The notes beneath the pieces are model-generated. The model did no database searches. It was not told where the DNA came from and saw only the letters and a program-made list of their open reading frames with translations. DNA of 64,000 nt from Bdellovibrio sp. ZAP7 (GTDB lineage Bacteria > Bdellovibrionota > Bdellovibrionia > Bdellovibrionales > Bdellovibrionaceae): NCBI RefSeq assembly GCF_006874645.1, contig NZ_CP030082.1, positions 3,720,001 through 3,784,000 of the forward strand, in the 5' to 3' direction. Below are positions 17,870 to 55,615 of the stretch, one piece after another. Every line of letters begins with the position of its first letter. Position 1 is the stretch's first letter. A program made the position numbers and the translations under genes.

Positions 17870-18655
17870 ATGTCTAAAAACCCTAAAACTCCAGCCAAAT
17901 ATGCCGAAGTTGCCGAATTTCTAAATGCTATTCTGAAAAGCAAACGCACGAAAAATCCCAAGTATTCGATGCGCGCTTTTGCCAGAGATTTAAAAACTTC
18001 TCCAGGACGCATTTCTGCAATTCTTGCCGGCCATGCATTGCCAGGAAAAATCGTCAGAAAAAGAATCTTGTCGGTTTTGGACATGAGTCCGGAAAAAGCA
18101 TCTAAATTGGAATTTCTGATCGGCAAATATCTATTGGAAAGAAAAGCCCCTAATCAGTATTTTCAAGTAACCGAGGAAGTGCAAACTTTCCTTCCCGAAT
18201 GGCATCATTTTGCAATTTTAAATTTATTGGAAAACAAGGACTTCAGAAACGACCAACATTGGATTTCACACCGACTGAACCTTGATGAAACTATCGTCTC
18301 GGAATCCATCAAAAAACTAATCTTGGTGGGCCTCGCAAAAGAGGAAAATGGGAAACTTGTACCGACTCATGCGAACATCACTTCAACCCACGACATTCCA
18401 TCAGAAGCTCTTAAAAACTATCATCGCCAAATGATTAAAAAATCTATGGAAGTATTAGACGAAGTACCGGTGGATTTGCGAGATGTCACCTCTTTGATCC
18501 TCGCAACCAATCCACGCCAGATCTATAAAGCAAAGCTATTAACAAAACAATATCGCCAGGACATGATCAAACTTCTGGAAGAGGGTGACAAAACCGAAGT
18601 TTATAGCGTTTGCATTCAGATAACACCCATCACTAAAGCAATTACCGCGGTATAA
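17870..18655 (+). CDS. TIGR02147 (DUF4423) family regulator-like protein
   Basis: 261 residues, cytoplasmic. The N-terminal third resembles a helix-turn-helix domain (YSMRAFARDLKTSPGRISAILAG). The rest follows the TIGR02147 pattern: a middle region (FLPEWHHFAILNLLE, LVPTHANITSTHDIPSEALKNYHRQMI) and the C-terminal VPVDLRDVTSLILAT, then QYRQDMIKLLE and EVYSVCIQITPIT. The family was first defined as paralogues in Fibrobacter and is common in Bdellovibrio; its biochemical role is not established. The stop lies eight bases before an exported protein with a GNGG motif. The same pairing recurs at 52964-54833. Confidence 0.8.
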   Translation: MSKNPKTPAKYAEVAEFLNAILKSKRTKNPKYSMRAFARDLKTSPGRISAILAGHALPGKIVRKRILSVLDMSPEKASKLEFLIGKYLLERKAPNQYFQVTEEVQTFLPEWHHFAILNLLENKDFRNDQHWISHRLNLDETIVSESIKKLILVGLAKEENGKLVPTHANITSTHDIPSEALKNYHRQMIKKSMEVLDEVPVDLRDVTSLILATNPRQIYKAKLLTKQYRQDMIKLLEEGDKTEVYSVCIQITPITKAITAV

Positions 18656-18663
18656 GGATATTT

Positions 18664-19356
18664 ATGAAAAAACTGCTTCTGTTTTCCACAATCTTATTCG
18701 CACAGACATCCTGGAGCACGGCTACTGAATTCGGAAATGGCGGCAACGCGGTGGTTTGCCCCTATGGCGAACATGAGATTGTAACCGCGTACGACATGAA
18801 TGAAGTTATTTTTCGATATGAGTTGCTTCCCTCATTTCCCCCGATGGTGAGTGCTGATTGTCAAAACCAACGCAATGGTCGCGAGATCTGCGAAACCGGA
18901 ACTGACATTGCCAGAGCTATCCTGAACCGCCTGGCTCTACTTGATCAGGATTTGATGAACGATCTTTTAGGTAAATTAGACACATTCTGGTCAGAGGCCA
19001 TCTTAGTTTACGGTGATCTAACTCCTGTAAACGACTCCGGCCTAAGTTTTGTGCCTGAAGGCTGTTCACTAAAACAATTGGCGATTCAGCAACAACCGAT
19101 TTTCGAGCAAGACAGCCGCTACTTCATTTCCGGTTCACTTTGGAATAAAATGGATGGTCAGGGAAAAGCCGTTTTGATACTTCATGAAATCATTTATCGT
19201 TATGCTTTAGAGCATGGTGCTGCAACTAAAAGCTCGGTGCCGATACGGTACTTCAACTCTCTATTAATCTCTGACAAACTTAAAGAATTTACTCCGAAAC
19301 ACTACATGAAAGTTTACTTCCAGGTATTCAGAATAAATCAAGAACCAGAACGTTAA
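18664..19356 (+). CDS. Exported GNGG-motif protein paired with TIGR02147 regulator
   Basis: 230 residues. The signal peptide ends about residue 20; the mature protein opens with EFGNGGNAVVC. A later segment, KAVLILHEIIYRYALEHG (about 178-195), has the HE of a zinc-protease helix, but Tyr replaces the second His of HExxH. Three or four cysteines in the first half could form disulphides. No named family is recognised; the GNGG start and HE helix recur in the protein at 52964-54016, which is also paired with a TIGR02147 gene. It starts eight bases after its regulator and was probably co-transcribed with it. Confidence 0.7.
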   Translation: MKKLLLFSTILFAQTSWSTATEFGNGGNAVVCPYGEHEIVTAYDMNEVIFRYELLPSFPPMVSADCQNQRNGREICETGTDIARAILNRLALLDQDLMNDLLGKLDTFWSEAILVYGDLTPVNDSGLSFVPEGCSLKQLAIQQQPIFEQDSRYFISGSLWNKMDGQGKAVLILHEIIYRYALEHGAATKSSVPIRYFNSLLISDKLKEFTPKHYMKVYFQVFRINQEPER

Positions 19357-52908: not shown

Positions 52909-52935
52909 AAGGTACGTACTTACCTGCTCCATAGA

Positions 52936-52966
52936 AAAATCCCGGGCTCTCACCCGGGATTTTTTA
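52936..52966. terminator. Bidirectional rho-independent terminator
   Basis: AAATCCCGGG and CCCGGGATTT pair around a six-base loop, with A and T runs, between convergent genes. Confidence 0.85.
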
Positions 52967-54016
52967 TTTCTTCCTTAGGCCTGTCGAAAAAGGCGATGAC
53001 GTCGTACCTTCAGATGCAAAATACTGACAAGAAAATTGAATCTCACCATATCTCACAATCATTCTTAACGTACTTTTACAAATGGGATTATCTGCAAAGA
53101 TCACCGTCGATACGACCGTCTCATCCCTTCCTTTGTCAGTAGCCTTTGATCTTAAAATCTCCACAACAGTTTTTCGCCCATTTGTTTCTTCACCGCAGTT
53201 GTTTGGCTCTGTGATGACAAATTTCAAACGTAAAACCGTGTTGTAGTCTTCCTGGAAGTATATCGACCCTTCCATGGGGTTTCCCCCCACACTGGTTTCA
53301 TAGGTCATCAAATTCTCATCTTGGAAAAGACGTGATCCTGCTATTTGTGCGCCAAATTGCCCCGTTCCATTTGAAGCGTCACATGCAAACAGGTCCCGGA
53401 TACCAAACTGTGAACCAATTTTCCCTTTTCGCTTCGCCACGCTGACCAGAGACGTTGCAACCGCATCCAAAAGATCCCTGCCTGATTTAAAAGGACCGAT
53501 CTTTTCGTTATCCGTTACTGCTTTACCCTCAAACAGCGCTTTATGTTCAAATTCATGAGTTATCAGGAATAGAACTTGGACCGGAGCCATGGTACGCATT
53601 GAATCCCTATGAAATTCAATCGCTCCCTCGGGGCCTAAACTCGTTCTAGCAGCCACCGACATTGCTTTACCATCGGGACCTTGTACATACAATGGCTCCT
53701 CTCGTAAAACAAAGTCAGTCGGTTTATCTCCACTACTCAACATCAAAATCTGTTGTCCGACTTTAAAAAAGAAATCACGACAGAACTGAACCTGCTCCAC
53801 TGACAACCGGTTTGTTTGACAGAACTTCTCTTTCTCCTCGGGCTGGCTCAAAACAAATTTCATTGTCGCGTTCATAGATTCCCGCGTCGCGCGTAAAAAT
53901 TCAAAAACGGGATCTCCACCATTTCCCACAACAGTACCGGACGCGTGCGCCTGTTGAATAAGCACCAGAAAAATGGTTGCGATCAGATAAATTAACTTAA
54001 GAATTTGATTCTTCAT
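52964..54016 (-). CDS. Exported GNGG-motif protein with HEFEH, paired with TIGR02147 regulator
   Basis: 350 residues. Signal peptide to about residue 25 (AHA), mature start SGTVVGNGGDPVFEFLRATRESM. The segment LFLITHEFEHKALFEGKAV (about 158-176) holds a full HExxH zinc-protease motif, followed by SGRDLLDAVATSLVSVA, which could supply a third ligand. Six or more Cys allow disulphides; the last third is beta-rich. It resembles the exported partner at 18664-19356 in the GNGG start and the HE helix. The start overlaps the TIGR02147 gene by 20 bases, so translation is coupled. No named peptidase family is recognised. Confidence 0.72.
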   Translation of the reverse strand: MKNQILKLIYLIATIFLVLIQQAHASGTVVGNGGDPVFEFLRATRESMNATMKFVLSQPEEKEKFCQTNRLSVEQVQFCRDFFFKVGQQILMLSSGDKPTDFVLREEPLYVQGPDGKAMSVAARTSLGPEGAIEFHRDSMRTMAPVQVLFLITHEFEHKALFEGKAVTDNEKIGPFKSGRDLLDAVATSLVSVAKRKGKIGSQFGIRDLFACDASNGTGQFGAQIAGSRLFQDENLMTYETSVGGNPMEGSIYFQEDYNTVLRLKFVITEPNNCGEETNGRKTVVEILRSKATDKGRDETVVSTVIFADNPICKSTLRMIVRYGEIQFSCQYFASEGTTSSPFSTGLRKK

Positions 54017-54833
54017 GAATCGCCCCGATTGGAGTTAGATGAATTGCCACTTGAACTAACGAGTCCTTACCTTGCGGATTATTCTCGATAAACTCCAACA
54101 ACTGCTGTTGAAAGGAGTCGACCAGGCCTCGCAGTTCATCCATTTTGTTTTTATCGACCGAAACCAATACTGTAGCGGACTTGCGCCGATGCGATGGCAA
54201 TACCGAAATTCCCCGATGAGCAATATCGAGTGCTTTCTTATGAAAAGACCGGATATTTTCATTGGGAATTTCATTCGTCGTGGCCACAGCACTTTCCTCA
54301 GGAACAATTTTTCCTTCAGGAGTTCGTCGCCAGAAGCCTTCTCGAATCAAAAAGTCTACAGACTTTTGAATTCTCTCCGGACTTACAATACCCGAAAGCA
54401 TTCTGTGCAGATTTTTAGGATCCGAAGAAAAACCCTTCAAATTCACCAAATCCTTCACATAGGGATTAACCCAGTCTGATAGAATATGGTTCTTTGCAAT
54501 ACGCTTAACAGGAATTTTCTCTTCTGTAGAATTCGAAACTACCTTCAGAACATTTCCCAATAATTGCTTATCAAGATAATCTTGTTCGATTTTTGTAAGC
54601 TTAAACACCACACACAAAGCCGGAAGATTGTCACGAGTCACTTGGCGGTGCCCGTTGATAATCTGAGAAACCAGAGTCTGCGACAAGCCACTCACCCGTT
54701 GAGTGCGTTGACGTAAACTGAAAGATCCGGTTTTCTTATAGTATTCAAAAAGAGCCCGAAGAAACTTTGCTGGTTCCCCATAGTCAAAGACTACGGGGCG
54801 CACTAGTTCCACAGTTTGGTTTTGGGATCTCAC
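53997..54833 (-). CDS. TIGR02147 (DUF4423) family regulator-like protein
   Basis: 278 residues. N-terminal helix-turn-helix-like region (FSLRQRTQRVSGLSQTLVSQIINGHRQVTRD), the middle domain with LIREGFWRRTPEGKIVPEESAVATTNEIPNENIRSFHKKALDIA, and the C-terminal LPSHRRKSATVLVSV to VQVAIHLTPIG. This is the same architecture as the protein at 17870-18655 with little sequence identity. GTG start overlaps the upstream exported protein gene by four bases (GTGA), and its own end overlaps the downstream GNGG protein gene by 20. Confidence 0.78.
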   Translation of the reverse strand: MRSQNQTVELVRPVVFDYGEPAKFLRALFEYYKKTGSFSLRQRTQRVSGLSQTLVSQIINGHRQVTRDNLPALCVVFKLTKIEQDYLDKQLLGNVLKVVSNSTEEKIPVKRIAKNHILSDWVNPYVKDLVNLKGFSSDPKNLHRMLSGIVSPERIQKSVDFLIREGFWRRTPEGKIVPEESAVATTNEIPNENIRSFHKKALDIAHRGISVLPSHRRKSATVLVSVDKNKMDELRGLVDSFQQQLLEFIENNPQGKDSLVQVAIHLTPIGAIHEESNS

Positions 54834-55429
54834 TTATAGGTTCCCAAGAACTTACAGCTAATATCGACATTAAGCAGAGGTTGCCCCGTGACGTCGTCAG
54901 TAATCTCCATGCTTGCAGGACCCATTTCTTCGTCATTAAATACCGGGGTTTTTCCATTCACAGAAGTTTTTTTCCAACGTGTCACAGGATCCGAACCAAA
55001 TGGATCATTACTTTGCATGCAAGCCACTTGGCCATCATCGTAACATGCCTGAACCGGCCCACCGTCATTTTTGTGTTTACAATAGCCGCCCGCCACGCCC
55101 ATACATGTGAACTGACGTGCTTCAATCCCCGTAGCTCCTGGGATTTCCCGAGACGCGTGGGAATAGTAAAAATTCAAATTGGCAAAGGCATGACCATGCT
55201 TAGCATCGATTTTAATTTTCATTTGTGTCTGACCCATAGTTTCATCGAAGGGTTTTGTCGTTCCGCCTGATGAAGGAAGTCGCACAACGGAAAGCTCTTG
55301 AGACTGAGTACTCTCCGTGCCACTTAAACGATCCTTAATTTTTGCAGTACATGTGAATTTATCCGCGACAACAGCGTGAGAAGTGCTCGCGCCAAGAATA
55401 AGTAAAGAAGCTAATACTAGGTGTTTCAT
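54830..55429 (-). CDS. Exported Cys-rich protein, first gene of the TIGR02147 cassette
   Basis: 199 residues with a signal peptide (to about residue 19, SHA). The mature part has eight Cys (FTCTAK, FTCMGVAGGYC, QACYDDGQVACM, ISCKF) and a beta-rich pattern, so it is likely disulphide-bonded in the periplasm or outside. No family is recognised. It is coupled through GTGA to the TIGR02147 regulator, so the operon reads Cys-rich protein, regulator, GNGG protein. Confidence 0.7.
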   Translation of the reverse strand: MKHLVLASLLILGASTSHAVVADKFTCTAKIKDRLSGTESTQSQELSVVRLPSSGGTTKPFDETMGQTQMKIKIDAKHGHAFANLNFYYSHASREIPGATGIEARQFTCMGVAGGYCKHKNDGGPVQACYDDGQVACMQSNDPFGSDPVTRWKKTSVNGKTPVFNDEEMGPASMEITDDVTGQPLLNVDISCKFLGTYK

Positions 55430-55615
55430 GGTGTTCTCCCAAAATTGTTTAATTCAAAAACGATTTCAACGTCGATGAAGAAACTATTGCAGGATATTCT
55501 TGCGTAGCCAAGAGGGGCTGGTCATCAAAATGATTGCATATGTAATCACCGCGGCAATCCCTGCGAGGGGAAATTGACCCTGTTTGCGGGATTTTCTGTG
55601 TCTTTGAGGACGAGT

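Follow-up and report, generated by a model that had tools for sequence, protein, structure and literature searches.

A patchily distributed three-gene cassette joining a TIGR02147/DUF4423 regulator to a predicted exported zincin-like protein

The window analysed is a stretch of 64,000 nucleotides (G000:C1:3720001-3784000) within a 4.12 Mb single-contig genome, and the cassette described here lies at 52964-55429 on its minus strand, where the ORF list with translations gives three overlapping ORFs. Gene 1 (54830..55429, minus strand) encodes a Cys-rich protein of 199 aa predicted to be exported; gene 2 (53997..54833, minus strand) has a GTG start and encodes a TIGR02147/DUF4423 HTH regulator of 278 aa; and gene 3 (52964..54016, minus strand) encodes a protein of 350 aa, also predicted to be exported, with the motifs GNGG and HEFEH. 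Genes 1 and 2 share the 4 nt GTGA (54830..54833, minus strand), and genes 2 and 3 share 20 nt (53997..54016, minus strand). The ORFs and both overlaps are as the initial annotation had described them, and small overlaps persist in relatives: in the orthologous cassettes, the gene 1/gene 2 junction also has overlaps of 1-28 nt, and the gene 2/gene 3 overlap is 8-20 nt. The same annotation had read fixed stoichiometry into the overlaps, which does not follow, as overlapping genes do not imply it for a cytosolic regulator and exported proteins. Against the cassette in genome G017, differences in all three genes are mainly synonymous (dN/dS 0.09 for gene 1, 0.00 for gene 2 and 0.12 for gene 3), therefore all three are real genes under purifying selection. 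The gene 2 protein, with zero amino-acid differences to G017, scores 107 bits against TIGR02147 (cut-off 50, residues 15-269) and 90.2 bits against DUF4423 (cut-off 30), and by the curated cut-offs it is a full member of the TIGR02147 (Fsuc_second)/DUF4423 regulators. Orthologues of gene 1 occupy the same position in G017, G037, G238 and G212, with five invariant Cys; its protein has no match in Pfam, NCBIfam, PHROGs or the PDB, and a direct PDB profile search with it gives no credible match.

The protein encoded by gene 3 (protein 3) has no curated match in Pfam, NCBIfam or PHROGs, and what it may be has to be read from its conserved positions and its predicted fold. Protein 3 and its aligned relatives have signal-peptide-like N termini, a prediction made by eye from the sequences. 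Just past the signal peptide stands GNGG (residues 31-34, codons 53915..53926, minus strand), which is invariant in alignment A2. The HEFEH motif (residues 154-158, codons 53543..53557, minus strand) falls in the predicted active-site helix, and its HExxH form is invariant in 19/19 sequences. So is Asp169 (codon 53510..53512, minus strand), the candidate third metal ligand in an HExxH-x10-D arrangement: all 19 relatives have Asp at exactly +11 after HExxH with no change of spacing. The complete list of invariant positions in the 19-sequence alignment is G31-N-G-G34, C66, C79, H154, E155, H158, D169, P175, F176 and R180. The predicted model has a zincin-like domain at about residues 34-197 (pLDDT about 80-97 across most of residues 41-200), in which a strand at 133-136 is followed by a helix at 145-159 that contains HEFEH, and a beta-rich C-terminal domain at about residues 202-340. 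Its best fold match is deuterolysin (1eb6), an M35 aspzincin, with Z 10.7 and rmsd 3.9 over 148 aligned residues, a score that comes from realigning Foldseek's candidate list; plain Foldseek with the same model returns no match at E <= 0.001. The next fold rows for the domain are at Z 4-5, with PprI and MATCAP among them. Profile comparison matches the HExxH region, an edge strand and helix, to the mini-metallopeptidase selecase (E 0.0015). Pfam metallopeptidase families are also found in the relatives as sub-threshold matches (PhageMetallopep in 11/19, and also M48 and M78), all those with displayed cut-offs scoring below them. A group of proteins with HEYSH aligns to the HEFEH group by profile from the signal peptide onward, with probability 93%.

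Taken with the model, these results support a zincin-like HEFEH domain, and the conserved residues make a His-His-Asp zinc site probable. On the strength of the predicted fold, protein 3 probably works like an aspzincin. The suggestion of an exported metallopeptidase, for which structure prediction had been proposed as a check, thus comes through in its structural part: the predicted fold is zincin-like and deuterolysin-like, and the invariant Asp169 is a candidate third ligand; peptidase activity would be a further step from these features. The resemblance to M35 (deuterolysin and peptidyl-Lys metalloendopeptidase) lies in the predicted fold, the HExxH, the invariant Asp downstream and export. 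In M35, however, the Asp that binds the metal and the catalytic Tyr are both part of a GTxDxxYG motif (PMC7215534, PMC11985622). Protein 3 lacks this motif, the context of Asp169 being D-x-x-x-[IV]-GPF, so it has no Tyr three residues past the Asp and no counterpart of the catalytic Tyr. Pfam M35 has no match in protein 3 or its relatives at E <= 1, PF14521 (M35) has none in this genome at E <= 0.001, and a profile-profile comparison with bacterial M35-like proteins is weak (probability 52%). We considered and rejected membership in M35 given the weak profile comparison and the missing signature and Pfam match. The minigluzincins, selecase and proabylysin, resemble protein 3 in the edge strand and HExxH helix, where the profile match lies, but the selecase match spans about 60 residues only; both are single small domains (105-110 residues) that lack the GNGG segment as well as the C-terminal domain. 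We also observe two variations on the architecture. In a sister branch (L052-L056, L060), the zincin gene is followed by an overlapping gene for a lipoprotein-like protein of ~420 aa with the motif IIGNKL..MS.L, and this regulator-zincin-lipoprotein operon is conserved. In other families of the phylum (L063-L066, L070, L072, L073), the HExxH domain is fused to different C-terminal parts, which by eye look LamG-like, FN3-like or repeat-like, often with a lipoprotein-type signal.

The pairing of a regulator with an exported protein recurs in this genome. There are 40 matches to TIGR02147, corresponding to about 35 genes, and counts of modules are taken from the loci around these matches. An exported protein with [GN]xGG and HE motifs stands behind 14 of the regulators (in one case with an intervening gene) and divergent to 5 more, about 19 in total, of which twelve proteins are linked by profiles (alignments A2, A3 and A4), the remainder being assigned from their GG and HE motifs only. 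Most of the module proteins contain a [GN]xGG motif. Where the orthologous cassettes have the overlap of genes 2 and 3, most other modules have a 4-nt ATGA, and this junction is found in many tandem modules, both here and in genomes of other genera. One region (G000:C1, about 2404736-2545722; L006-L009, L026, L031) holds at least six modules of a regulator and a GG/HE protein in about 140 kb, and is a possible duplication hot spot. The module protein at L015 (2007-3305), with GNGG and HEYAG, has a C-terminal half that resembles ankyrin repeats.

A parallel module lies in the window itself, which we call locus 1. It has a TIGR02147 regulator gene (17870..18655, plus strand) followed by a gene for an exported GNGG-HEIIY protein (18664..19356, plus strand; alignment A3), in which HEIIY occupies residues 174-178. 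This motif had been described as a degenerate version of HExxH. HEIIY is indeed present, but the notion of decay does not hold, as HExxY is the conserved state of a subfamily of its own. HExxY is found in seven paralogues of this genome, where the Tyr is invariant in 7/7, as are an S and an R further on; relatives are present in 46 of the 66 genomes of the family; of 29 further loci inspected, almost all keep the motif; and in other genomes 17/29 HExxY loci adjoin a regulator. The locus 1 protein is modelled with pLDDT 79 and pTM 0.79. Its fold matches are at Z 5.0 and below, with zinc peptidases in the lead and the Grifola aspzincin first, and plain Foldseek gives no match to this model at E <= 0.001. 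A profile comparison aligns the HExxH group with the HExxY group across the core of strand and helix (probability 93%). The HExxY proteins thus form a subfamily that is widespread and conserved, and whose resemblance to the zincin fold is weaker. Two members found by the HExxY profile (L116 at G000:C1:3412362 and L117 at G000:C1:3382430) have no TIGR02147 gene nearby, and L117 is a long protein of 759 aa or more with HEYFF.

The prevalence of such motifs bears on whether these proteins are peptidases at all. The family could have kept the zincin fold for binding or sensing, its members being pseudo-peptidases that serve as receptors of the envelope, as adhesins or as inhibitors, each paired with a regulator of its own. 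Most paralogues in this genome do have HExxY, HExxW or HExxG rather than HExxH; the Tyr form is the one preserved among the seven paralogues and nearly all of the further loci; [GN]xGG is retained where HExxH is not; and one branch has barrel-like C-terminal domains. For the branch of protein 3, on the other hand, the invariance of His154, Glu155, His158 and Asp169 in 19/19 sequences speaks against a pseudo-peptidase, because an inactive protein would not need those four residues. We regard the binding role as somewhat unlikely, the strongest of the alternatives, and for protein 3 we keep to the reading as a zincin-type metallopeptidase.

The cassette itself has a patchy distribution. Protein 3 is present in 2/24 genomes of the genus, and the three-gene order with short overlaps is found in five genomes of the phylum (G000, G017, G037, G238 and G212); the G212 copy of gene 1 is either shorter or runs off the end of the contig. 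At the boundary between panD and the cassette there is a terminator hairpin (52934..52965, plus strand) that abuts the end of gene 3. The same hairpin occurs in G022, where the site is empty: panD, whose product is 96% identical, and the terminator are followed directly by a gene that we take to be DUF523-like. The cassette at the panD site would then be an insertion common to 2/24 congeners, for which a gain in the ancestor of G000 and G017 is the simpler reading, and the cassette has probably been moved horizontally. Searches with protein 3 find no match among plasmid records. A search of genome contigs with protein 3 alone gives no relatives; with a four-sequence alignment it gives three, all in metagenome bins, which are named Bdellovibrionales, Bdellovibrionia or Bdellovibrionaceae. 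In G183 (L071, G183:C73) we find a decayed copy of the cassette, with the regulator and the GNGG protein in pieces and the HExxH missing.

The distribution also weighs on a proposed use for the enzyme, namely that it would be a predation effector, acting on the envelope of the prey. The host is Bdellovibrio-like, and a different DUF4423 protein, Bd3700 of B. bacteriovorus, is among those up during growth in prey (PMC12546842). Against this, the cassette is present in only 2/24 genomes of the genus, therefore it is not needed for predation generally, and nothing in our analysis ties it to predation. The predatory role put forward in the initial annotation accordingly finds no backing here, and we consider it unlikely; being a claim about use, it may overlap with the explanation that we prefer.

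Evidence on regulation comes from upstream of gene 1, where about 100 nt away there is a palindrome, TGATTACATATGCAATCA (55531..55548, no strand assigned), that we propose as a candidate operator. It is identical in G017, and has the counterparts TGATTACATTTGTAATCA in G238 and TTTACTTTTGTAAA in G037. The conserved form is TGATTAC-N4-GTAATCA, and the palindrome in G000 departs from perfect symmetry by one base. In the sister branch, whose proteins start with STFVGNGG, palindromes of the form TTTAC-N3-GTAAA precede the regulator gene. The common pattern TTAC-N3/4-GTAA occurs in 10/12 upstream regions, whereas shuffles that preserve dinucleotides contain it in 0.15 regions on average and in 2 at most; these figures somewhat overstate the case because the pattern was picked after viewing the sequences. 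The 14-base form of the palindrome has only a few copies per genome. In G183, the TTTTACN3GTAAA of the module is the sole copy in 3.8 Mb; in G000, a search allowing one mismatch gives, besides the palindrome of the cassette, just two sites, of which one precedes the TIGR02147 module at 2465804 by ~70 bp. A conserved palindrome upstream of such operons supports a dedicated autoregulator, in agreement with the earlier suggestion that the regulator belongs to its cassette, and the simplest reading of the sequences is that the regulator would bind its own promoter via the palindrome. A scan for sigma-70-type promoters does no better than shuffles. We also tried a single exact operator for all modules in this genome and rejected it: TTAC-N3-6-GTAA is upstream of only 4/28 modules (shuffle mean 0.36, maximum 3), therefore each regulator appears to go with its own site, and each may have its own or none. 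At L133 (G045:C12), the palindrome is missing and the regulator, just behind a transposase-like ORF, has an apparently truncated N terminus.

Pairs such as ImmR/ImmA and DdrO/PprI likewise have a gene for an HTH regulator adjoining one for an HExxH protein, and the peptidase would cleave its partner regulator and lift repression, a scheme that we consider highly improbable here: the regulator and HExxH genes do overlap, the weak fold matches include PprI (8sln, Z 4.6) and one relative has a weak M78 match, but an ImmA/IrrE-type pair needs a cytosolic peptidase, and protein 3 and its relatives have clear signal-peptide-like N termini and also conserved Cys or outer-membrane-type C termini, therefore the peptidase is predicted to lie in another compartment than the regulator, and the two should not meet.

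The reading that we favour, with moderate confidence, is that of a patchy, probably horizontally moved and self-regulated operon whose three products are an exported disulfide-type protein, a regulator of the TIGR02147/DUF4423 family and a zincin-type metallopeptidase that is likewise exported. The regulator would most likely bind TGATTAC-N4-GTAATCA in the promoter of its own operon and hold expression low until relieved by a signal, which may come from the envelope or from nutrients. Once transcribed, the overlapping genes would couple translation of the regulator with that of the exported proteins. Proteins 1 and 3, given their predicted signal peptides, would pass through Sec to the periplasm or the outside. 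There, protein 3 would bind zinc and cut a protein or peptide substrate, most likely a protein, and the Cys-rich protein 1 may also act outside the cytoplasm, where it could serve as an inhibitor, a chaperone or a substrate of its partner.

The literature searched gave no target, partner, operator or binding site for TIGR02147, and both the pairing of regulator and exported protein and the palindrome appear undescribed in it. TIGR02147, a multi-copy family, gains here a candidate operator and, in the exported zincin-like proteins, a recurrent partner. The exported zincin-like proteins, many of them with HExxY, form a group that is unrecognised by the curated family libraries scanned. As a more tentative proposal, one we hold with less confidence than the operon itself, the modules of a TIGR02147 regulator and an exported zincin-like GG/HE protein, many per genome, may constitute an undescribed class. 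Each regulator would control its own operon only, through a palindrome of its own; the HExxY sites would be working but non-standard, binding a metal or a ligand; and regulators and exported proteins together would provide the cell with a modular set of responses at the envelope.
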